Shown: piece by piece, positions 23,045 to 58,628 of the stretch
How positions within the stretch are numbered: position 1 is the first letter of the stretch
Layout: the number at the start of each line of letters is the position of its first letter
Assembly (NCBI GenBank): GCA_030550395.1
Contig: JAUQPL010000001.1
Span: forward strand, 131,795 to 195,794
DNA from: Bacteroidota bacterium
Lineage (GTDB): Bacteria > Bacteroidota > Ignavibacteria > Kapaibacteriales > HRBIN21
Length of the DNA: 64,000 nt
Direction: 5' to 3'
The notes under the pieces: generated by a model
What the model saw: only the letters and a program-made list of their open reading frames with translations
Database searches by the model: none
What the model was told of the DNA's origin: nothing
Made by a program: the position numbers and the translations under genes

Positions 23045-23052
23045 TATTTTTG
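23045..23052 (+). promoter_or_regulatory. TAnnTTTG promoter -7 element upstream of the nuoE-like gene
   Basis: TATTTTTG is an exact TAnnTTTG match ending 33 bases before the ATG at 23086, in the 79-base gap after the DUF2279 gene. It suggests the redox trio has its own promoter. Confidence 0.5.
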
Positions 23053-23085
23053 CGCTTGCCAGTAGAAACGCTTACACACACAGTA

Positions 23086-23619
23086 ATGAGCGAACTCTTC
23101 ACACCTGAGGAATTACAAGAGGTCGAACATCTCAAATCCCTATACCCCGAGCCTCAAGCAGCACTCTTGCCCGTGCTGTGGATGGTCCAACGGAAGTACG
23201 GCTGGATTTCATTGGATGCTATTCGCGCCGTAGCGGAATTGCTCCGTCTCCCGTATGCCCATGTCCTGGGCGTTGTTCGCTTCTATACCATGTTCCACAC
23301 CGAGCCCATGGGACGCTATCACATCCAGGTCTGTACCAACATCTCATGTATGCTCCGGGGAGGGGAGCAAATACTGACCTTTCTTTCACAAAAACTTGGT
23401 ATTGGGCACAAACAGCGAACCCCTGACGGAGTATTTTCATTGGAAGAGGTAGAGTGCATGGGAGCTTGTGGTGGAGCTCCCATGATCGCTATCAACGAGG
23501 ACTACTACGAAAACATCACCGTGGAGCAAGTCAATGAGCTCTTAGAACGCCTGCGCCTAAGCGCTCAGAATAGTTCCCATACCGAGGGGAACGGTACCAA
23601 TGGGCATCCCACGCCGTGA
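23086..23619 (+). CDS. nuoE: NuoE-like [2Fe-2S] subunit (24-kDa NADH:quinone oxidoreductase type)
   Basis: A 177-residue thioredoxin-like [2Fe-2S] protein with the four cluster ligands Cys83, Cys88, Cys124 and Cys128 in VCTNISCM and VECMGACGGAP, and the family's helical start (LLPVLWMVQRKYGWIS) and RFYTMF motif. NuoE normally passes electrons beside NuoF, which binds NADH. Here no nuoF or nuoG follows; instead the gene runs by a 20-base overlap into a Rieske protein. The frame is open to a TTG at 23050, but the ATG at 23086 gives the normal start. It may serve complex I genes elsewhere or a formate/NAD hydrogenase-type complex. Confidence 0.88.
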   Translation: MSELFTPEELQEVEHLKSLYPEPQAALLPVLWMVQRKYGWISLDAIRAVAELLRLPYAHVLGVVRFYTMFHTEPMGRYHIQVCTNISCMLRGGEQILTFLSQKLGIGHKQRTPDGVFSLEEVECMGACGGAPMIAINEDYYENITVEQVNELLERLRLSAQNSSHTEGNGTNGHPTP

Positions 23620-24343
23620 ATTCTTACGGCAACTTACTGCTGCAACAACGGTTGCTTTTGTGCCTTCCGCGTTACTGCAGCTCTTCGGTTCTCCTTCCCA
23701 GTCACCTCGTGTACCGTGCCGCCGCTTCCTTATCCGACTGAGTGAATACCCCGCACTCCAAGCGATAGAAGGCTCGGTCAAAATCTCCGTCCCTAATCCT
23801 GACGGCAGCATCTATCTACGATTGATTGTCACTCGCATCGCTGCTGATAGTTTCGCTGCCGTTGACGACATCTGTACCCATGCTGGATGCCTAGTAGGCA
23901 CATATCGGAAGGACCTCCGAGCGCTTCCTTGCCCGTGTCATGGTGCCCTATTCCGCCCTACGGGGGAAGTCATCTCGGGACCAGCGTCGCGTCCACTCCA
24001 ACGCTTCCCAACTTTCTATACTCCTGGCAGCGATGTGCTTGAGGTAGAGCTCCCCGCTCCCTCTTCCCTGCCTTACTTTCCTTCTGTATCGCTCGCAGTG
24101 CTTTCCAACCCTGCCACCGACTGGCTTGAGATTCTGGTAACTGCCCCTGCGCCTGGTCCCCTCCGCTTCCGCATCTTCACCCTCCAAGGACATCAGGTGC
24201 TAGAGTGGCAACAAGAACTTCCTAAGGATCAGCCCCTCCGGATCCGATACCCGTTAACGCATTTTGCACCAGGTTCGTATTGGCTTCAAGTGAGCATTCC
24301 CGGACAAGGATCCTCCGTGCAGCGCTTCATAATACTCCGCTAA
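23600..24343 (+). CDS. secreted Rieske [2Fe-2S] protein with Tat-like signal and T9SS sorting domain
   Basis: The 247-residue protein has three parts. Residues 1-30 contain PRREFLRQL followed by a mild hydrophobic stretch, a good twin-arginine signal. Residues 45-150 are a Rieske domain with CTHAGC (Cys92, His94, Cys97) and CPCHGA (Cys111, Cys113, His114), so both cluster ligand pairs and the disulfide cysteines are present. Residues about 163-247 match a type A T9SS C-terminal domain (SNPATDWLEILV, FRIFTLQGHQVLEWQ, FAPGSYWLQVSIPG). This predicts a folded redox protein carried to the cell surface. It overlaps nuoE by 20 bases and precedes a haem-motif lipoprotein by 3. Rieske proteins of bc complexes have a membrane anchor and no such tail. 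Confidence 0.88.
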   Translation: MGIPRREFLRQLTAATTVAFVPSALLQLFGSPSQSPRVPCRRFLIRLSEYPALQAIEGSVKISVPNPDGSIYLRLIVTRIAADSFAAVDDICTHAGCLVGTYRKDLRALPCPCHGALFRPTGEVISGPASRPLQRFPTFYTPGSDVLEVELPAPSSLPYFPSVSLAVLSNPATDWLEILVTAPAPGPLRFRIFTLQGHQVLEWQQELPKDQPLRIRYPLTHFAPGSYWLQVSIPGQGSSVQRFIILR

Positions 24344-24346
24344 AAC

Positions 24347-25786
24347 ATGCGGTTGCGTGTGCCAATATTCCTGCTCTTTGCCCTCCTTATCGGGGGAGGA
24401 TGCGAACAAACGGGGCTAGATGATTTTGGCACCGCATCCCCCTTTGAGCTATCCCCGTCCGTGGCTGACTTCGGTCAAGTCCGCTTAGGGCAGACAGCAA
24501 CTCTCTGGCTCCGTATTCGAAATCGCACTGATTCCGTTCTCGTTTTGGCTCCCGCTATTATTGGGAATGATCGTCCCGCTTTCCGTCTCCTTCGCCAGCC
24601 TGATAGAGCTCTTCTACCCGGGGCGTTAGACAGCCTACTGCTAAGTTTTACGCCGTCGGAAGCCCGTCTCTATCAGGCAACACTTCTTCTCGGCGACGAT
24701 CACCCTGTTGAGGTCCCCCTCCGGGGTATAGGGGTCATTGAGGGACGCCTTCAGCTCATCGCAGCTATTGCAGAAACTCCACCAACAATTGACGGTGTTC
24801 CCGACGACCCAGTCTGGCGGGTTGCATCTCCACTCTCCCTAACTCTTCACCAGGTAGAACCGAACTCCCCGGATACACGCACTATTACTGCAAGCATCCG
24901 TGCAGCCTCAGACGATGAATTCCTGTATCTGCTCGTGGAAGTCGAGGATCCGACTCCCCACCAAACCCCGAATCTCTTCCGCTTCCGCGGGGGCGACCCC
25001 GCCTCAGAAGCAAATTGGTCTCTCAGTACTGAAGGGCAGGACGGCATTGGTCTTATCTTCCCCATCAGTATGCCGGGGGACATAGAGGGTGACCAGGCAA
25101 ACCAAACATTTGAGACCGTGGGTTGCGCTGTCACATGCCATTCAGCCCGAAGTGTTACCATCTATGAAGGCGGGAGCTATCCTACCACCGGGCGCATAGA
25201 CATCTGGTACTGGAAAGCCGGCACCACCAATCCCCAAGGATATGCCGATGATTACGTTGCCGAGGGGCGCAATGGCTCTAACTTCCCCGAAGAGCGCCGA
25301 GGCGATGCCGGCAATAGGTTTGAGGAACCCAATTTCCCGCCTCATGGGGCTGGTCCTGTGCTTCCTGTGAACATGGCCGGAGGAGACAATGGTGGCTTAG
25401 ACCCCCGTCTTTTCCTTTGGTATCTCACGGCTGTCCCCTTCAATCCCCGAGCCCGAAACCCTGCTACCGGACGTCCATGGACTGCCGGTGACGTCGTCCC
25501 AGGCTGGCTTCTCCGAACTCAGAGCTCTCCCTTTGCCAGCCGAGGGGATATTATCGCTCGCGGTCGTCACGCCAACGGACGCTGGAGTGTTGAATTCCGA
25601 CGTCGCCTGAATACTGGCAAATCCGATGATGCCCTTTTTGCCCGAGGACGTTCCCTCCCGTTCAGTCTGGCCTACTTTGACAATAGCCGTAAATACGCTC
25701 CCTTTGAATACGCAGCTCTCCCAGCGCCTCCACGCCCAGATCATTTCGGACCGATCCCACCCGTTATCTGGCTGCTTATACCCTAG
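24347..25786 (+). CDS. lipoprotein with ASH-like domain and ethylbenzene-dehydrogenase-like haem domain (CX3CH)
   Basis: A 479-residue lipoprotein: signal with lipobox LIGGGC (Cys19). Residues about 32-130 form an immunoglobulin-like 'choice-of-anchor'/ASH-type domain (SPSVADFGQVRLGQTATL). From about 140 the sequence follows the haem-binding ethylbenzene-dehydrogenase-related family (PPTIDGVPDDPVWRVA, DEFLYLLVEVED, QDGIGLIFP). Within it, GCAVTCHSA gives Cys260, Cys264 and His265, a CX3CH motif that could bind a c-type haem, rather than the usual CXXCH. Such domains often take part in periplasmic or surface electron transfer. It follows the Rieske gene by 3 bases. The haem assignment is inference. 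Confidence 0.75.
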   Translation: MRLRVPIFLLFALLIGGGCEQTGLDDFGTASPFELSPSVADFGQVRLGQTATLWLRIRNRTDSVLVLAPAIIGNDRPAFRLLRQPDRALLPGALDSLLLSFTPSEARLYQATLLLGDDHPVEVPLRGIGVIEGRLQLIAAIAETPPTIDGVPDDPVWRVASPLSLTLHQVEPNSPDTRTITASIRAASDDEFLYLLVEVEDPTPHQTPNLFRFRGGDPASEANWSLSTEGQDGIGLIFPISMPGDIEGDQANQTFETVGCAVTCHSARSVTIYEGGSYPTTGRIDIWYWKAGTTNPQGYADDYVAEGRNGSNFPEERRGDAGNRFEEPNFPPHGAGPVLPVNMAGGDNGGLDPRLFLWYLTAVPFNPRARNPATGRPWTAGDVVPGWLLRTQSSPFASRGDIIARGRHANGRWSVEFRRRLNTGKSDDALFARGRSLPFSLAYFDNSRKYAPFEYAALPAPPRPDHFGPIPPVIWLLIP

Positions 25787-37679: not shown

Positions 37680-40334
37680 TTACCGCTTGATAAACCAATA
37701 ACAAAAGTATCTCGCAGGCGTTCTGATACGCAAGAAATAAGCTCCTCGTGCCCAGGCCACGACAGGGATTTTGAAAACAAAGTATCCAGGATTCCAGACC
37801 CGTTGAGCAAAGAGACTGCTGCCGAGGAGGTTTACAACCTCTATGAGCAGCTCACCCGATTCCCCTTCAACAACGCCTCGTATTTCCTCTCTCTCTGGGC
37901 TTAGCTCAATGGAGATTCGTGGAGCGCTGCGAATTTCTCGAACAGCAGAACGCACGAAGACATAGGGGTCCGAAACAGAGCTACATCCTCCTATGGTCAC
38001 CTGAACGTAGTAGGTTCCATCACGTGGCGGGACAAATTCCCGGCCCGTAGCACCAGGAATGGGTTGGCGATTCTCATCCAGCCATTGGTTTCCTGTCAGT
38101 GCACTAGAGACCAGCGTGTCGCCACGACGCCCAATCATAGGTTTGGGCGGACGCGGGAAGAGGTGGACTTGCGCAGAGTTCTGCGAACGCACGGTTCCAC
38201 AATCATTACGGGCTTCCACGGTGTACGTACCCGCTTGCCAGACGCGGACAATGGTATCCCGAGCCCATGGCAGAGCCGTATCGTTGCGGAACCATACGTA
38301 ACGAACTCCCGCTTCACCCGAGATGCGTAACTCTACAGTATCCCCCTCACAGAGGCGAATCTCTCCGGAAGGAGTAAGGAGAGGACGTCGCGGAAGCGGT
38401 CGTACCGTAATAGAGAAGCTCTGCCTTGCTCGGAGGCTACCGCATTCATTGTAAGCTTCTACTGTATACTTTCCCGATTCCATCGCGGCATACATCGTGG
38501 CGTCTCCCGCCACGACCGTAGAATCACGCCACCATCGGTAGTGAACTCCTGGCTGGGGATTAATCACGTACAGGAGCGCCCGACGTCCTTCGCAAAATTC
38601 CGTCTCCCCATCTACTGCAAGCTGTGGTTCAAGAGGACGTTGCTGCGCTGGTACCGGCATTCCATTGTCGTTGCTATAAGCAATGGGCTTGGTTGCTGCA
38701 ATCCGGACCCGATATTGTCCGCCTGGGGGGAGGAATGGGATAAAAACCTGGAAAGATGTGTCCGAACGGGCTTGCAGCGAATCTAACTGCTGCGGTGTCC
38801 GGAAGCTCGCTCCCGCATCAGAAAGCTCAATGATGAACGTGTTATCTACAGCAAACTCCCCGCCCCGGACATTCCACCGCAGCTGGAGGACATCTCCCGT
38901 GCAGAGGACCGAATCAGGCAGTGCTTCTAGCTCAATACTGAGCAGATATCCTCCCAGGCGAAGGATAGCTCCATCATTCAGCCCCGCCAGAGTAGGTTGA
39001 AAGGCATTGGCGGTAACCGGGAAATCTGTACTTCCAGTAACTCCAACAACTGCAACATTCCCTGCACTATCAACAGCCGCGGCAAATGGTTGGTCTGTCC
39101 CCGTTCCTCCATAGAGCAAGCTCCATTGTGGCATCCCCGTCCGGTGGAGTTTCAGCACAAACTTATCTTCACCCCCACTGAGAGATTGTCCTGTCCCGAG
39201 GATGGGAAAATCGCCGCTAGAGGTTTTGCCAACAACGTACAGATTCCCAACCGGATCCGCCGTACAGCTAATTGCTCCATCTGCTTCACTTCCTCCAAAG
39301 AAAGTCGCCCATCGGAATTCCCCCGCAGCGGTAAGCTGCACGATAAAAGCGTCAGAAGCCCCGCCTGCATGGTATGGCTGCCAGACAGGGCTGACTCGTA
39401 TATTCCCACTAGCCGTTGTTCCAACAACCACTATATGTCGGTCTACTGTTACCGCAATGCCATAAGCACGATCGTTATCCGAACCACCGTAATAGGTTGA
39501 CCAATTCAGATTCCCGAACGCTGTAAAACTTGCCACAAAAGCTTCAATGCCTCCTTTTGATGTTCGCTGCATTGCATTGCGCACTGGGAAATTAGGGCTT
39601 GTGGTTTCACCACAGATATAGAGGGTGCGTCGGCTGTCTACTCCAACGCCGTATGCGTAATCAGGTGCTGTACCCCCCAAGTACGTCGCCCACACCCGCG
39701 CCCCATCAGGGCGCAGTTGCACAAGGAAAGCATCGGTGTACCCTGCTAACATAGGCTGAACAGCATTAGAGGTTATGGGAAAATCCGTACTGGAGGTATA
39801 ACCCGTCACCGCAATAAAGCCCTGATTATCGACAGCAATGGCCGTAGCAACGTCATCACCTCCTCCCCCGTAATAGGTTGCCCACAATCGCTGTCCATCG
39901 GAGGAGAATTTGGCTATGAAAGCATCCGTACCCCCTCTTTTGGTACTCTGAAAAGCGCCTGCCACGGGAAAATCACTACTGGCTGTTACTCCAACAACGT
40001 AGAGATTCCCCTCCCGATCAACCCCAACTCCAAGAGCGCGATCGTTGTCGCTACCACCAAAGTAGGTTGCCCAGAGAAGGGAGTTTGTGGGACTGAACTT
40101 TGCAATAACGGCATCTTCTCCCCCCGCCTTTGTACCTTGCCACGCGTTGAGCACTGGGAAATTTACCCCCCACGTCCATCCGACGACGATAAGGCTACCA
40201 TCGACTGCAATAGCAGTAGATCGAATTTCATCCTGTGCTGTTGACCCAAGGTACGTAGCCCATTCCACCGTTGGTTGTGCCCGAATGCCGACCATCGCCC
40301 CCAGCACTCCCAATATCCAGCGGCGTATCCTCAT
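37680..40334 (-). CDS. secreted SBBP-repeat (beta-propeller) protein with Ig-like domains and T9SS sorting domain
   Basis: An 884-residue protein with a signal peptide (ending near residue 20), then seven SBBP repeats of about 62 residues up to about residue 460, each of the form WATYxGGSxxDxAxGxAVDxxGNLYVVGxTxSxDFPV, expected to fold as a propeller. Four Ig/PKD-like domains follow, two with a CEG...CG cysteine pair likely to form disulfides. The last 80 residues (LLIEVVNLLGSSLFAQRV, ARGAYFLRIRTPARYFCYWFI) are a T9SS type A sorting domain. It is a probable cell-surface or adhesin-like protein; ligand unknown. A GTG one codon upstream is also possible. It follows tRNA-Arg(UCG) by 23 bases. Confidence 0.88.
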   Translation of the reverse strand: MRIRRWILGVLGAMVGIRAQPTVEWATYLGSTAQDEIRSTAIAVDGSLIVVGWTWGVNFPVLNAWQGTKAGGEDAVIAKFSPTNSLLWATYFGGSDNDRALGVGVDREGNLYVVGVTASSDFPVAGAFQSTKRGGTDAFIAKFSSDGQRLWATYYGGGGDDVATAIAVDNQGFIAVTGYTSSTDFPITSNAVQPMLAGYTDAFLVQLRPDGARVWATYLGGTAPDYAYGVGVDSRRTLYICGETTSPNFPVRNAMQRTSKGGIEAFVASFTAFGNLNWSTYYGGSDNDRAYGIAVTVDRHIVVVGTTASGNIRVSPVWQPYHAGGASDAFIVQLTAAGEFRWATFFGGSEADGAISCTADPVGNLYVVGKTSSGDFPILGTGQSLSGGEDKFVLKLHRTGMPQWSLLYGGTGTDQPFAAAVDSAGNVAVVGVTGSTDFPVTANAFQPTLAGLNDGAILRLGGYLLSIELEALPDSVLCTGDVLQLRWNVRGGEFAVDNTFIIELSDAGASFRTPQQLDSLQARSDTSFQVFIPFLPPGGQYRVRIAATKPIAYSNDNGMPVPAQQRPLEPQLAVDGETEFCEGRRALLYVINPQPGVHYRWWRDSTVVAGDATMYAAMESGKYTVEAYNECGSLRARQSFSITVRPLPRRPLLTPSGEIRLCEGDTVELRISGEAGVRYVWFRNDTALPWARDTIVRVWQAGTYTVEARNDCGTVRSQNSAQVHLFPRPPKPMIGRRGDTLVSSALTGNQWLDENRQPIPGATGREFVPPRDGTYYVQVTIGGCSSVSDPYVFVRSAVREIRSAPRISIELSPEREEIRGVVEGESGELLIEVVNLLGSSLFAQRVWNPGYFVFKIPVVAWARGAYFLRIRTPARYFCYWFIKR

Positions 40335-40357
40335 CACTCCCTACCCCTCTCCATCTG

Positions 40358-50526: not shown

Positions 50527-51282
50527 CTACCGTCGGTACCGTGACCGCAATGGTTTCCGCTTCCGTCGAACCGCGGTCTCGCTATAGTGAACGGGACGTC
50601 CTTCAAAGCAGAGAACGAATTCACCTCGAAAGCGGCTATGCCGGAAGCGCTCCCACAGCTCGGCAAAGGTTCCGTAGTGATGCGTCTCATAGGGTAGCGT
50701 CAGGTTGCAGGCAAGGTAGGCGTGGCGCTGAGGCATAACAGCCGCAGCATCGGAAAGCAGCTGGCGGAGTCGGTAAGGGGTCTCCAAAAGAACAACCGTG
50801 CGCAACTCTTCGGCTAACGCTTGGAGCTGACGACGACGCTCCTCGGGTTTGCGGCTCAAGAAACCAGCGTAGAGGAACTGATCGGTAGAAAAGCCACTGC
50901 GCACAAGCGCCGTGAGAATACTGGAAGGCCCTGGAACAACAACCAACGGAAGTCCCTCTCGGAGAATCCGTCGGATGAGAAAAGCTCCCGGATCAGCAAT
51001 GACTGGCATTCCAGCATCGGAAATGAGCGCGACATCCTTACCCTGCCGTAAGTATTCCAATACCCGCTCTGTTGCTTCTACTTCGTTATGCTCATTGAGG
51101 CTTTCTAACGGCTTATCAATCCGATGGGCGCGCAGCAGACGAGCCCCTACCTTGAATTCCTCACAGAAAACCACGGAACAGCTTTTGAGCACCCGCAGAG
51201 CCCTCAGGGTAATATCCTCCACGTTCCCAATCGGAGTGCCGACCACGTAGAGAGTACCCGCCTTCACGGGTTGAGCGTCCAT
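50527..51282 (-). CDS. rsmI: 16S rRNA (cytidine-2'-O)-methyltransferase RsmI
   Basis: A 251-residue SAM enzyme of the tetrapyrrole-methylase fold that modifies cytidine 1402 of 16S rRNA. Motifs are typical: GTLYVVGTPIGNVEDITLRAL at the start, LNEHNE, ALISDAGMPVIADPG, and VVPGPSSILTALV. The frame is open to 51327, but the ATG at 51282 gives the family start and overlaps the endonuclease gene by 19 bases. Confidence 0.95.
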   Translation of the reverse strand: MDAQPVKAGTLYVVGTPIGNVEDITLRALRVLKSCSVVFCEEFKVGARLLRAHRIDKPLESLNEHNEVEATERVLEYLRQGKDVALISDAGMPVIADPGAFLIRRILREGLPLVVVPGPSSILTALVRSGFSTDQFLYAGFLSRKPEERRRQLQALAEELRTVVLLETPYRLRQLLSDAAAVMPQRHAYLACNLTLPYETHHYGTFAELWERFRHSRFRGEFVLCFEGRPVHYSETAVRRKRKPLRSRYRR

Positions 51283-52868
51283 GTCCACCACATCTGTTGT
51301 CCTACCTTCAAGCAAAGCAAAAGCCATCCCCGCGGCAGCCGGTGGCGTGGAAGCTGAAGCTCTAACTCCCCAACTTTGGTTTGACGGACAAGGGGCACAA
51401 CTTCTTGCGACTGCCCCAGCAGGGTGTAGATGAACAGTCTTGGAGTTTCCGTCCCCAGCGCTGCGCGCCAGCGTACCGAGAGGATATCCTCTCTGAAATG
51501 GGGAGGCTCCACGGTTGCCCCCGTTGTCGCTGCAATTCGGAAGGTCACCTCTAATGGGCGGACCCCTGCTGCAAAGCGAATCCGGAAGCGAAGTGTCCCG
51601 TCAGAAGCCGGCTTTCCTGACAGCTCAATCGAGATCCATCCAACTCGGCCGGCAGCAATGGAGCTATCGGCACTGAGCCATGTCACGGTAACGCTATCGG
51701 GAAGTACCAGTGGCTCAATTCCTCGCAACTCCACTGACGTCCATCCGGTATTCAGGCAAGCGAGTCGCAACCGCCAGCGGCGCTCCTGTCCTCGGTACTC
51801 CAGAAGTGTGTCGGAGGGCAGCACAACGGGAAGTACAGGTGCATCCGCAGGCCCACCGATCCGGTAGAGGCGTTCAACCAATTGCGGGCGCTCAACGAAA
51901 GGATTAGCTCGTCCCTGTAGCTGGGCAATCCGGCGCGTTCGCTCCCGCTCCCACTCATCCACAGTATCCTGCCAGTGCCATTGGCGCAACAGCGCCTCGT
52001 GTCCTGCAGTGAGGAAACCCGTCATATTCCCATACCGCAGAGCAACGTAAAACAGAGCTCGCGCCGCATCCCCCTTATGGCCATCACGGGGCTCAAAGAC
52101 TTCTCTCCCTACGGAATCAAACCCATACCGGGATCCCCCCAATTCCCATAATATTTGCCGCACAAGACCAAAGGGGAGATTGCTCCGCCGTTCATTCGCC
52201 TCGGCAAGGGTTGGGAAGAGGTGGTGCAAATCACTCAAGGGAGGAAGGGTATCGGCACCGCGGCTACGCGGCCAGGTGTGCTCAACATTGAAAGCCTGCG
52301 GTGGAATTGGTGGTACCCGTGCGGTCTGACCAGTGTAGACACACTCCACCCTTCCCCCACGATTGTGCACCATCCGAAAAACCCAGGAACGGACACTATC
52401 GTATGGGAAAACCGCTTGCGCCCGAACCACCTGCTGAAGGTAGCCGCGCAAAGCCTCGCCCCACAGCCCATTGGTCCCTCGGTAGAGTGAATCGGGATCT
52501 TCAACATAGGCCCGCAGTAGGCAAGGATAGGTCCAGTCGGCCTCGGGACATTGAAGGCGCAACAGTAACAGCCCCTCTGTCGGCACATTGTGCCGGAATG
52601 AGGTACGAACTTCAATGGCTACCTTCCCCCCTGGCGGCACAACCTGTGGTGTTTGAACCGCTACACTGAACCCTCCCCACGCCCATTGATACACCTGTAC
52701 TGACCGCAGTTCTATATCCGCTGCTCCAGTGTTGTGTATCCACACGACCCGACGGTGTTCTTGACCAATTGCAATGGTACCGAAGTCCACCGTGTCTGGC
52801 TCTACCACGACCCCACACCAAAAAGCCCACACTGGGAACGGAAAGGCTATCCAGAAACAGTGACGCAT
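51264..52868 (-). CDS. secreted endonuclease I-type nuclease with T9SS sorting domain
   Basis: A 534-residue secreted protein: signal peptide (MRHCFWIAFPFPVWAFWCG), an ASH/choice-of-anchor domain (VVEPDTVDFGTIAIGQEHRRV), then the endonuclease I domain at about 130-335 with NVEHTWPRSRGA (His197), SDLHHLFPT (His215/216) and ANERRSNLPFG, the metal and catalytic motifs of EndA/NucM enzymes. A second Ig-like domain follows, and the last 80 residues (PRLFIYTLLGQSQEVVPL, LPRGWLLLCLKVGQQMW) resemble a T9SS sorting domain, somewhat degenerate. It should degrade extracellular DNA. An in-frame ATG lies six codons upstream. Confidence 0.85.
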   Translation of the reverse strand: MRHCFWIAFPFPVWAFWCGVVVEPDTVDFGTIAIGQEHRRVVWIHNTGAADIELRSVQVYQWAWGGFSVAVQTPQVVPPGGKVAIEVRTSFRHNVPTEGLLLLRLQCPEADWTYPCLLRAYVEDPDSLYRGTNGLWGEALRGYLQQVVRAQAVFPYDSVRSWVFRMVHNRGGRVECVYTGQTARVPPIPPQAFNVEHTWPRSRGADTLPPLSDLHHLFPTLAEANERRSNLPFGLVRQILWELGGSRYGFDSVGREVFEPRDGHKGDAARALFYVALRYGNMTGFLTAGHEALLRQWHWQDTVDEWERERTRRIAQLQGRANPFVERPQLVERLYRIGGPADAPVLPVVLPSDTLLEYRGQERRWRLRLACLNTGWTSVELRGIEPLVLPDSVTVTWLSADSSIAAGRVGWISIELSGKPASDGTLRFRIRFAAGVRPLEVTFRIAATTGATVEPPHFREDILSVRWRAALGTETPRLFIYTLLGQSQEVVPLVRQTKVGELELQLPRHRLPRGWLLLCLKVGQQMWWTWTLNP

Positions 52869-52973
52869 TCTCCCGTGCTCCGTCAACTGGACAGGCGAAA
52901 TTACAGCACCAGCTACGGCTTCCTACCCTCGGACGCTCATTCGTCTTCTCCTACCACCGTCCAAGCTATCCCG

Positions 52974-53675: not shown

Positions 53676-56600
53676 ATGCCGTATTGTGCTCTTCTCCTTC
53701 TTTTAGCATTCCACACGGCAGCCGAAGAACTTCAGCTCCAATGGGAGCGGGCAACTCCGACGGAAGTCCTCCTTTCCGTCCAGCTACCCTCTCCAGTCCT
53801 CACACGGACGGCAGCTGGGGTAGAGCAAGTAGCACCGGCTTCTGCCTGGGCATTTCCGCTTCCTGACATTTCTCTCTATGGCTTTGCCCTTCCTGTAGAC
53901 CTCCCCGAGCAGACCCGCCTTTCTGCAGAAGTCCTACAATGGCAGGAGCTACAACTGGAAGCCCCGCTTGCAACCCGCCCATGCAGAGAATGCCGCACTG
54001 AACCGCTGCCCATCGCTCACCTTGTTAGAATCGGCTCCCTGGGCAACACCTCTATCTCCGTCCTCCGCCTCTTCCCGTATCGCCCAACAGCCGATAGCAA
54101 ACACCTGCGCATTGCCCGACAGCTCCGTATCCGCCTGACAACCCCCACGCCCCTCCCTTCTGACAATCTTCTGATACCCCTGAGTTCCTCAGCAATGCGT
54201 TCATACGGGAAAAGCTCTCAGACTCTCTCCAGCAACGCTGAACCACACCCCATCCCAACCGCTCCCGACGGCTACCAATACAAGCTCATCGTCAACCGTG
54301 AAGGACTCTACAGAGTAACGGCTTCCCAACTTCGTGAGCTTGGGCTCCCACTGGCACAGATCCCTGTGCGTTCCCTTCGCCTATGGAACCGCGGAAGGGA
54401 AGTTCCACTCTACGTTTACGACCGCAACAATAACGGCTTCCTGGAAGAGTATCCCTCCGATCCTGACTACATCGCCTTCTTTGGAGAACCCAATCGGATT
54501 GCTTTTCGGAACCGAGATGGCGATATGTACCGGGACCCAGAAACTGACGACAATGTCTATGTGCTTACCTGGGGTGAAGGGCTCGGACAAAGGATGGTTG
54601 AAGAGACAGGGGATTTACGCATCACAGATCCACGACGGGCAACGGAACTTCGAGGAAAAGCCTTCCTGAGCACCGTCTTGATAGAGCACAACCGCGTGGA
54701 AGAACGCTTCGGAGCAGTAGAAGAATTAGACCGTGATCTTCTCCAGCCCAGCTTCCAAGGCGACCAGCGGTTCTGGGCACGGGTAGCCGCCAATACAAGC
54801 GTGTCACTCCCTGTTTCACTGCCGGCACCCGCTGTGGTTTCAGACCTTCCCGTGACGGTAGAAGTTATGCTCTGCGGCGCTATCAGTCGTCCCCTGCCCT
54901 GTCCTATTCCAGAGCATACGGCAGAAATCTATCTGAACAATCACCGCATCCTGCGCGCCTCATGGTCCGGGGCGCGCCCTTTTCTGGTTCAATCCCCCCG
55001 AGACCAGATTGCTCCGATAAGCCCTGCCATTCTTGTGAACGCGGACAGCAGTACTGTAACTGTGGCAAATATCTTCAACTGCCCAGAAGCAGCCGAACGG
55101 GCCCCCAGTTTTTATGTCAATTGGGTGCGGATCCACTATCCCCGCCTATACAGGGCAACAAACGATGAGCTATGGTTCCGCATTCCACCGGCCTCCCCGC
55201 CCGGAGTCTATACATTCGCTCTGGAGGGCTTCCAAACACCCAACGTTTTGCTCTTCCGAGTCGGGATCTCTCGCATTGTCAACTTCAGCATTGAGCGAGT
55301 TACGCTCCCCTTTGGTGGAGGGACGCGCTATACGGTGCGGTTCCAGACCTATGTGGCCTCATCGGAAGAACTCTTCTACGCCGTTGCTGCTGACAGTACC
55401 TTGACACCCGCCCGAATGGTACGAGATCTCCCCTCGGACCTCGTCAATCCAATAAATAGTGCCGACTACATCATCATTACCCACAAGGGAATTTGGGACC
55501 GACGTTCACCGGCGGCTTCTGCTGCAGAGCATCCCGTCCAACGACTCCTCCGTCTCCGGCAGCAGCAAGGGCTACGTCCCATGGTCGTGGACATTGAGGA
55601 TATCTACGACGAATTCAACAATGGGATTGCCTCCCGAGAGGCTCTCCGCCGCTTTCTCCAGTATGCATGGCAGACCTGGAGTACTGCTCCACGCTATGTC
55701 CTTCTTTTAGGAGCAGCCGATGCCATTCCACCCCAACTGTGGCAGACACGCCGTTGGGGTATGACGCCGACGGACTATCCATATGGCTGCGTGGAGGGAA
55801 TCTACCAAACACCCGTCGGCGCCCTGACCGATGATCCAATAGCAGAAATAGCCGTCGGACGTCTGCCCGTTAAGTCCCTCTCGGAGGCACAGGCGATTGT
55901 CAGCAAAATAGAAGAGTACGAACAGCGCTTTGCCACAGACTTCTTCCAACCCCGTGTGCTGCTGTTGGCCGGTATCAATGGCTTCGCCCAACAGACAGAG
56001 TTACTGGCACAGCGGCTGCCGGACGGGGTCTCGCAACGTCGGCTCTATGTAACACCGGGCACCCCGTATTCAGGACATACAGCGGAGCTCCTCCAATTGT
56101 TCCAGGAAGGTGCTGGCGTTGTGAATTTCCTGGGTCACGGAGGCGGTGGTATCTGGGAGGACGCTGGTCTGCTACGCGATGAGGATGTTGAGCTCCTCCA
56201 GAACCGAGGCCGTTATCCGATCGTCTCCAGCCTGACCTGCTTTACCGGCGCCTTTGAAGAGCAGGCGTACCGTCGGGGACTCTTAACGACCCTGGTGCTT
56301 TCCCGGGGACGAGGTGCCATTGCTGCCTGGGGCAACTCTGGCTTCGGATGGCTGGAGAATAGCTTTTTTCTCTCTACCGCTCTGCTGGAAGCTTTGACAC
56401 GCCTTTCTCCTCGCCCTCTCCGCCTTGGTGACGCCTTCCGCGCCGGGAAGCTCCTCTATGCCAGCCGAGCATACGGCTTGCAGAACGAAATCGTGCTTTC
56501 TATGCTTCTGCAATCTACCCTCATTGGCGATCCAGCGTTATTGCTCCGCATACCGCCCGATACAGTAATACTCCGGCCTGAACGCTGGTCTGTTTATCCA

Positions 56601-58628
56601 GGCGAGCAAATCTCCGTAGAAGCTACACTCCCCTTTCCGTCGGGAACAGCTCGGATCGTGCTTGGGGACAGCTACGGTAACGACCTCACCGGTAGTGAAA
56701 CAACGCTTGCGATTTCCGCAGCTTTGCTCCGTTTCACCATCACAATTCCTCGGGACTACACTGGCTCCACTATTGCCGTCCGGCTCTATACCGTGGACGC
56801 TTCCGGACAACGGGCAGTTACTGGTGGAATTCGGCTTAGTACAGGGGGGGTTCTCTTCGGGGACATCACAACCCTCCCTTCCCCTCCCCAGCCGGGACAA
56901 GCTCTGGCACTGAGCCTGACTTTACATAGCCGCACACCCATCCAGAGTGTAACGGCTTCCGTTAGCCTCCTGTTGCCGGATGGAAGTACACAATCCTTCA
57001 GTGCCTTACCCTGCCAACAATCCAGCCCGGAAACGTACCAGACACAATCCCCACTGCCTGCTGTGTTAATCTTGCCGGGCACGGAAATCCGGGTGCTCTT
57101 CACCGTTGTTCTGGCAGACGGACGGAGTCTTAGCTCTCCATTGACGACTTTCCTGGTGCCTGGAGTTGCTGATCCAGCCGTTGTTACTCCAATTGCAGGG
57201 GATAGCCTTCGCACGGCTCTACCGTGGCTTCGCATGGAACCAACGGCGCAGGGAGCACAGCTCCACGTCCGCCTTTTCAACTGGACAGAGACTCCAGCGG
57301 GGAATGTGCTTGCGCGCCTATGGTATATCCCGCGCACGGGCCCTCCCAACCTTCTGGCAGAACAGCGCCTGAACATACCCGGGAACGGCTCTACTGATTG
57401 GTTTCTTCGCCCTCCCCCTTTCCTGTCTATGACCCGTCTTGCCGTGGAGGTCATCAGCGATAGTCTCTCTCAGGGCGGCGATCGCCTTCGGGCAAATAAC
57501 TATGCTGAGGATAGCCTGGCGCTTGCCTGTTTCTCTCTTCTGCCTGGCATCGGTACGACGGTCGACGGGACCCAAACGGCACCGGTGGGACAGTCTGGGA
57601 TTGCGCTTGCTACTGTTATTCCCTCCCAGGCTCCTTCGGCTCCTCACCTCCTGTGCCTGATGGTACAGAACACAGCCAGAAGTGTCCAACCCAATGTCCA
57701 TTTCGTCCGCCTCCGCGATAGCTCCGCTGCCGTCTCTATTCAGGTTGCCCCGAACACCTCCCTGAGAGCAACCCTCCAACTCTGGTACGACACTCAGGAC
57801 AGCAATCTGAATCATGGAACTCCAGCCATTTACCGGAAGCACACGCGTCTGGACCTCTGGCAACGGCTCCCCAGTCAGCAGATAGGCCCGGGACTTTTGG
57901 AAGCCGAAGTCACACTACCGGGCATCTTTGCTGTCGCAACGACAACGGATCAGCGCCCACCACAAGTCCGCATCACTGCGGAAGGACGGGCTATCCCTGC
58001 CCGGACTGTGCTCTCGGCCAATCCACGCATTGGTATTGTCGGTGTTGATGAAAACGGTATTGCCACAGACACCGCCTCCATCCAGCTTACGCTCAACGGA
58101 CAGCCCGTTCCAGCAACCCAATACACCGTCGTTGATACAGCGCAGACTCCGACAGGGGCCAGCATCAGCTACCGTCCACAACTTACCAGTGGCACCCATA
58201 TCCTGTGCGCAACCGTGGCTGACTGCAATGGTAATCGCAGCGAACGGACCTGCATTCAGTTTGAAGTCTCCACAACCCTTGAGCTCCGCCTTTTGGGGAC
58301 TTTCCCAAACCCCTTCGCCGAAGAAATGTTCGTTGCCTATGAGCTTTTGGGAACCAGTAATGTGGACGAGGTAGAAATCCGCTTCTACACTGCTTCGGGG
58401 CGCTCCATCCGTCGGATGGTATTCCCTACCACATCCCCCACAGAAGCCTTTGGCTTCCTCCGGGGCGGAACTGGTCTTCCGACAGCCCCGGGATACCACG
58501 AAATCTGGTGGGACGGCACCGATGATGAGGGGCGTCCTGTTGCCAATGGGATATACTTTTACCGGCTTCGCGTGCGGGCAGGTGAAACAACTATTGAGCG
58601 GCGTGGTAGTGTGGCGCGTGTTCGCTAA
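53676..58628 (+). CDS. porU: type IX secretion sortase PorU (gingipain-type C25 peptidase)
   Basis: The 1650-residue protein has a signal peptide (cleaved near residue 17), a long N-terminal prodomain-like region, and a C25 caspase-like domain with the catalytic His821 in FLGHGGGGIWED and Cys855 in SLTCFTGAFE. Beta-rich domains follow, ending from about residue 1537 in a FlgD/T9SS-like sorting domain (FPNPFAEEMFVAYELL, GIYFYRLRVRAGETT). PorU removes sorting domains and attaches cargo to surface lipopolysaccharide in other Bacteroidota. Gene order porU-porV supports the assignment over an ordinary secreted gingipain-like protease. It is longer than characterised PorU (about 1150). Confidence 0.88.
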   Translation: MPYCALLLLLAFHTAAEELQLQWERATPTEVLLSVQLPSPVLTRTAAGVEQVAPASAWAFPLPDISLYGFALPVDLPEQTRLSAEVLQWQELQLEAPLATRPCRECRTEPLPIAHLVRIGSLGNTSISVLRLFPYRPTADSKHLRIARQLRIRLTTPTPLPSDNLLIPLSSSAMRSYGKSSQTLSSNAEPHPIPTAPDGYQYKLIVNREGLYRVTASQLRELGLPLAQIPVRSLRLWNRGREVPLYVYDRNNNGFLEEYPSDPDYIAFFGEPNRIAFRNRDGDMYRDPETDDNVYVLTWGEGLGQRMVEETGDLRITDPRRATELRGKAFLSTVLIEHNRVEERFGAVEELDRDLLQPSFQGDQRFWARVAANTSVSLPVSLPAPAVVSDLPVTVEVMLCGAISRPLPCPIPEHTAEIYLNNHRILRASWSGARPFLVQSPRDQIAPISPAILVNADSSTVTVANIFNCPEAAERAPSFYVNWVRIHYPRLYRATNDELWFRIPPASPPGVYTFALEGFQTPNVLLFRVGISRIVNFSIERVTLPFGGGTRYTVRFQTYVASSEELFYAVAADSTLTPARMVRDLPSDLVNPINSADYIIITHKGIWDRRSPAASAAEHPVQRLLRLRQQQGLRPMVVDIEDIYDEFNNGIASREALRRFLQYAWQTWSTAPRYVLLLGAADAIPPQLWQTRRWGMTPTDYPYGCVEGIYQTPVGALTDDPIAEIAVGRLPVKSLSEAQAIVSKIEEYEQRFATDFFQPRVLLLAGINGFAQQTELLAQRLPDGVSQRRLYVTPGTPYSGHTAELLQLFQEGAGVVNFLGHGGGGIWEDAGLLRDEDVELLQNRGRYPIVSSLTCFTGAFEEQAYRRGLLTTLVLSRGRGAIAAWGNSGFGWLENSFFLSTALLEALTRLSPRPLRLGDAFRAGKLLYASRAYGLQNEIVLSMLLQSTLIGDPALLLRIPPDTVILRPERWSVYPGEQISVEATLPFPSGTARIVLGDSYGNDLTGSETTLAISAALLRFTITIPRDYTGSTIAVRLYTVDASGQRAVTGGIRLSTGGVLFGDITTLPSPPQPGQALALSLTLHSRTPIQSVTASVSLLLPDGSTQSFSALPCQQSSPETYQTQSPLPAVLILPGTEIRVLFTVVLADGRSLSSPLTTFLVPGVADPAVVTPIAGDSLRTALPWLRMEPTAQGAQLHVRLFNWTETPAGNVLARLWYIPRTGPPNLLAEQRLNIPGNGSTDWFLRPPPFLSMTRLAVEVISDSLSQGGDRLRANNYAEDSLALACFSLLPGIGTTVDGTQTAPVGQSGIALATVIPSQAPSAPHLLCLMVQNTARSVQPNVHFVRLRDSSAAVSIQVAPNTSLRATLQLWYDTQDSNLNHGTPAIYRKHTRLDLWQRLPSQQIGPGLLEAEVTLPGIFAVATTTDQRPPQVRITAEGRAIPARTVLSANPRIGIVGVDENGIATDTASIQLTLNGQPVPATQYTVVDTAQTPTGASISYRPQLTSGTHILCATVADCNGNRSERTCIQFEVSTTLELRLLGTFPNPFAEEMFVAYELLGTSNVDEVEIRFYTASGRSIRRMVFPTTSPTEAFGFLRGGTGLPTAPGYHEIWWDGTDDEGRPVANGIYFYRLRVRAGETTIERRGSVARVR

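Follow-up and report, generated by a model that had tools for sequence, protein, structure and literature searches.

Whether a protein that would be folded around an iron-sulfur cluster in the cytoplasm can be handed to the type IX secretion system (T9SS) and placed on the cell surface is the question raised by one gene within the 64,000-nucleotide stretch of DNA analysed here (the window). The open reading frame (23600..24343, plus strand) encodes 247 amino acids that combine a predicted twin-arginine (Tat) signal peptide, a Rieske [2Fe-2S] domain, and a C-terminal sorting domain (CTD) of T9SS type A. According to one review (PMC9251779), the T9SS transports folded proteins, and hence a cargo folded before Tat export would be mechanically acceptable to it. 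The cargo of the T9SS is described as Sec-exported (PMC9127263, PMC9251779), and these reviews agree with what the original prediction on this locus had stated. As no account of a Tat-delivered T9SS cargo was found in the open-access literature, the new element, which is the Tat-type N-terminus on a T9SS cargo, is provisionally regarded as novel.

Architecture and the Rieske centre

The gene has a single possible start, the ATG at 23600, because the open frame continues upstream of it without any ATG, GTG, or TTG. The predicted Tat signal peptide spans about residues 1-29 (23600..23686, plus strand, as are all the parts given here), with the arginine pair at residues 5-6 (23612-23617) followed by a weakly hydrophobic stretch, the h-region. 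The Rieske domain spans about residues 41-152 (23720..24055; PF00355, 1.3e-10) and scores 41.5 bits against the Pfam cut-off of 20.3. Its first cluster motif, CTHAGC (residues 92-97, 23873..23890), carries the ligands C92 and H94 and the disulfide partner C97, and the second motif, CPCHG (residues 111-115, 23930..23944), carries the ligands C111 and H114 and the disulfide partner C113. The four ligands are invariant among the 24 aligned homologues, and they are retained even in those homologues from which the disulfide cysteines are absent. In the AlphaFold model, the blocks of the Rieske domain are mostly above 90 pLDDT, and the top Foldseek matches are Rieske proteins. The last 84 residues (164-247, 24089..24340) form the sorting domain, which is seven-stranded in the structure model. 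The three-part order of RR signal, Rieske domain, and T9SS-type tail that the original prediction had described, with complete Rieske motifs after a Tat-like start, is confirmed.

The bc1 Rieske proteins carry a serine and a tyrosine near the second cluster motif. The presence of alanine and phenylalanine in the focal protein instead suggests that its potential may be lower than that of the bc1 proteins. Similar to the known Tat-exported Rieske proteins, such as the bc1/b6f subunits and AioB, the focal protein carries a disulfide-type Rieske domain behind an RR signal. It differs from them in the extra CTD, in the expected cleavage of the signal, and in having no cytochrome b or aioA gene adjacent to its own at the loci examined. 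Two assignments to these systems were rejected. As a cytochrome bc1/b6f Rieske subunit, the protein scores 36.3 bits where one equivalog model requires 97.4 and 43.3 bits where another requires 250, and its gene lies between nuoE and the gene for a lipoprotein with an EB_dh domain. Likewise, as the arsenite oxidase small subunit AioB it scores 22.2 against 95.65 bits, and aioA is not adjacent. Among solved structures, the Rieske domains nearest to it in profile or fold are PetC3 of Synechocystis (5cxm), the Chlorobaculum tepidum Rieske protein (8hn2), and Kuenenia kuste4569 (9rk4), the solved chains of which, unlike the focal protein, are without a T9SS sorting domain.

Every one of the six genomes of the genus has the same domain order. 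Beyond the genus it is found in members of five or more further families, which brings the families of the order to at least six, and in a single genome that does not belong to the class (G151, locus L149). The relatives that bear names are Bacterium HR21, a Candidatus Kapaibacterium MAG, and a Bacteroidota MAG, and they assign the window to the Kapaibacteria group. The Rieske-CTD proteins are a conserved family, and the finding is in this respect broader than the original prediction had stated. In one homologue (L039), several repeat domains separate the Rieske domain from the CTD.

The C-terminal domain

Taken as a single sequence, the focal tail falls below the cut-offs of both curated models, with 20.5 bits against 23 for TIGR04183 and 15.9 bits against 27 for PF18962. 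Therefore, more than a curated-model match is needed to call it a T9SS domain. An own-genome HMM was trained on 19 sorting domains that score over the cut-off, with Rieske proteins excluded. It gives the focal protein 39.7 bits, and among 500 shuffled tails the highest score is 5.1 bits; with the DUF1501 member removed from the model, the focal score is still 37.2 bits. Among the homologues, TIGR04183 (best 2.9e-11) and PF18962 each match 23 of 24. A profile of the family tails, run against PDB sequences, retrieves the solved T9SS sorting domains 8glk and 8glj as its top two matches and Mirolase (8qb1) as the fourth. In a search of the full alignment against 118 genomes of the phylum, many T9SS-type tails are retrieved through the C-terminal part by itself, with about 20 per genome in many cases. 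The CTD glycines and tyrosine are invariant in the family, and the PN motif is present in at least 90% of the homologues. The AlphaFold model of the CTD is a seven-strand sandwich with a mean pLDDT of 93; the number of strands, in this case from a predicted model, equals the seven of the RgpB CTD (PMC4804311). The structure search, in which PorU was among the matches, is not discriminating on its own because the Ig-like fold is common.

The original prediction had set an ordinary Ig-like domain against its own reading of the tail as T9SS type A. A generic Ig-like domain was rejected, as the sequence profile retrieves T9SS CTDs from the PDB, where the solved sorting domains come first, as well as across the phylum. 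A chance motif was also rejected, given the arginine pair in 24 of 24 homologues and a CTD score far over the shuffles. Judged from its sequence, the domain is a T9SS sorting domain and not just a generic Ig-like one, and the match to T9SS type A that was first noticed is borne out by the own-genome HMM, the homologues, and the PDB profile rather than by the curated models on the focal protein. With T9SS type A cargo (TIGR04183/PF18962) it shares the Ig-like sorting domain, the PN motif, the conserved glycines, and the GxY motif, along with a host genome that encodes SprA, PorU, PorV, and many other CTD proteins. It differs from this cargo in having a Tat-like instead of a Sec signal and in being a [2Fe-2S] protein.

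Both export machineries are represented in the genome. Tat translocase genes are present as TatC and two copies of TatA, and the core T9SS outer-membrane genes are present as SprA (715 bits), PorU (728 bits; G000:C14:109377-112628), and PorV. The genome has 43 CTD matches in a search whose first-look filter passed over the focal CTD, and this domain was scored directly. GldM was not detected by TIGR03517 or PF12081, so the T9SS motor here is either divergent or has escaped detection; the TIGR03517 null is not proof of absence, because this model gave no match in the control genomes either. The missing GldM match, together with the sub-threshold scores of the focal CTD on the curated models, would fit a protein that is exported by Tat and then retained in the periplasm for electron transfer there, its CTD decayed or unrecognised. 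Such retention is improbable in view of the invariant CTD glycines and tyrosine, the conserved PN motif, the own-genome score far over the shuffles, and the presence of SprA, PorU, and PorV.

The N-terminal signal

The homologue set used for the signal includes members just 23% identical to the focal protein. Throughout this set (24 of 24) both arginines are invariant and never replaced by lysine, and the flanking residues vary. Phenylalanine at +3 and leucine at +4 are each found in 22 of the 24 homologues, giving RRxFL. The mean KD hydrophobicity of the h-region is 1.76 in the Rieske family. In a comparison set of 13 T9SS cargo proteins of the Sec type, picked by eye among those CTD proteins of this genome that have a readable start, it is higher, at 2.42 (p about 2e-6). 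None of these 13 Sec-type proteins has an RR motif. The canonical Sec signal of T9SS cargo is hence not seen in the focal family, in which the arginine pair is invariant and the h-region is of low hydrophobicity. The Tat model TIGR01409 gives the focal protein 12.7-15.3 bits, below its cut-off of 16.7, and at an E of 0.1 it matches 5 of the 24 homologues; the model is short and insensitive, and its shortfall is thus weak evidence.

Rieske proteins that act outside the cytoplasm are assembled within it and leave it through Tat. This background bears on the proposal that the focal protein leaves through Sec, with an incidental arginine pair and a cluster that is added after export or not bound at all. 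The reviews in which T9SS cargo uses Sec (PMC9127263, PMC9251779) and the sub-threshold Tat score of the focal protein speak for Sec export. It is nevertheless highly unlikely, as it would leave without explanation an arginine pair found in every homologue and in none of the Sec-type CTD proteins, the low hydrophobicity of the h-region, the invariance of all four cluster ligands, and the Tat route taken by other Rieske proteins.

A signal recognised by Tat may also stay in place. Rieske proteins of the bc1 type are inserted by Tat with an uncleaved anchor, and the focal protein could likewise be held at the periplasmic face of the inner membrane, with its C-terminal domain acting as a structural Ig-like extension. 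Such an arrangement would fit the Rieske domain, which in sequence and fold is nearest to bc1/b6f-type and PetC3-like proteins, and the focal sequence, in which no clear signal-peptidase motif or obvious AxA site was found. Several features of the family speak against it and make it rather unlikely. The h-region is short or interrupted by proline or glycine, and the 19-residue hydropathy of 1.15-1.77 is low for a membrane anchor. An alanine or glycine occupies one plausible cleavage position in 23 of 24 homologues, the exception being the focal protein itself, and this conserved position is consistent with signal cleavage. Moreover, the resemblance of the C-terminal domain to T9SS sorting domains lies in the sequence and goes beyond the fold, the bc1/b6f equivalog cut-offs are far off, and the adjacent genes do not include one for cytochrome b.

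The original prediction had named a Sec signal or an uncleaved anchor as the readings that would count against it. With both weighed, the invariant arginines, the short or broken h-region of low hydrophobicity, and the conserved small residue mark the focal signal as predicted Tat rather than Sec.

The RR signal and T9SS tail in a second family

The pairing of an RR signal with a sorting domain is not confined to Rieske proteins. The CTD list of the genome includes a DUF1501 protein that starts with MKRRQFL and ends with a sorting domain. Among 25 DUF1501 proteins from this genome and its relatives, all have a CTD match with a model built without DUF1501, and 24 have RRxF[LI] near the start, the start of the remaining one not being reliably readable. 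Loci with the combination are G000:C14:220922-221641 (L096, L140) and L119-L143. Five more DUF1501 proteins of the order (L114-L118) keep the RR signal without a CTD, which indicates that the CTD is a separate module. The DUF1501 proteins thus share with the focal protein the pairing of RR signal and T9SS tail around an unrelated core domain, and as the pairing recurs on two unrelated cores, coincidence is unlikely.

Gene neighbourhood

The Rieske gene lies in a conserved neighbourhood of putative redox genes. Upstream, a nuoE-like gene (23050..23619, plus strand) encodes a [2Fe-2S] thioredoxin-like protein (PF01257, 2.3e-54) and overlaps the Rieske start by 20 bases; nuoE adjoins the Rieske gene in families f1, f5, and f7. 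Downstream, and beginning three bases past the Rieske stop codon, is a gene (24347..25786, plus strand) for a predicted lipoprotein (Cys19) with choice-of-anchor-D-like and EB_dh domains (PF09459, 1.5e-25). This lipoprotein has a CxxCH heme motif, CAVTCH, at 25124-25141, and its gene adjoins the Rieske gene at the focal-genus loci examined and in genome G020. In another family (L082, L083), the neighbours include two cytochrome-c-peroxidase-like genes as well as genes for a second, RR-bearing Rieske lipoprotein and for a small lipoprotein with a CxxxCH motif. The nuoE, heme-lipoprotein, and cytochrome-c-peroxidase-like neighbours suggest a redox role, with the EB_dh heme lipoprotein as a candidate partner of the Rieske-CTD protein. 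In a third family, the gene 3' of the Rieske gene is rhomboid-like, and hence the redox partner is not fixed.

Proposed export route

The reading we favour, and consider probably correct, is that the protein is exported folded with its cluster by Tat and is then transferred by the T9SS to the surface, where it would act as an electron carrier. The [2Fe-2S] cluster would be inserted in the cytoplasm, where the protein would fold, and the folded protein would be exported by Tat, after which the signal would be removed. The CTD would then direct it through the outer membrane via the T9SS, with SprA and PorV, and the PorU sortase would cut off the CTD, so that the Rieske protein stays on the cell surface or is released. 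At the surface, it would probably exchange single electrons with the neighbouring heme lipoprotein. Of the unusual secretion route that was originally proposed, the T9SS-type tail and the Tat-like signal have held up. The architecture and its conservation, the Tat and core T9SS outer-membrane genes, and the kept gene neighbourhood are observed; the use of Tat, the handover to the T9SS, the surface location, and the redox partner are what we infer.

If this route is correct, the T9SS translocon can take fully folded, cofactor-containing proteins from Tat, and the cargo range of the T9SS widens to metal-cluster redox proteins. It would also suggest that bacteria with a T9SS may position iron-sulfur electron carriers outside the cell. 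A wider proposal, on which our judgement is evenly divided, is that in this order the T9SS routinely accepts Tat-delivered, folded, and cofactor-loaded cargo from two or more protein families that are unrelated to each other (Rieske and DUF1501), and that the resulting surface iron-sulfur centres may serve extracellular electron transfer with surface heme lipoproteins.

Other observations in the window and genome

In addition to the PorU named above, the window encodes at 53676-58625 a PorU-type protein that contains a C25 peptidase domain (PF01364, 4.1e-72) and matches the PorU and PorU2 models below their cut-offs. An Endonuclease I protein whose N-terminal region is Ig-like is encoded at 51267-52886, and an Endonuclease I sorting domain (8glk) is the entry that heads the PDB matches of the Rieske tail profile. 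A beta-propeller (SBBP) protein at 37683-40337 has an end that resembles a T9SS tail.

The genome encodes further proteins with RR signals, among them a superoxide-dismutase-like and a molybdopterin-oxidoreductase-like one; the superoxide-dismutase-like protein (L086, G000:C9:38088) is without a CTD. A second Rieske protein of the genome (L113, 4594-5109; G000:C5:16593-17108) has an RR signal and a lipobox-like cysteine and is likewise without a CTD. Its gene shares a contig stretch with TatC, and a 388-aa protein with an N-terminal CxxCH is encoded close by.
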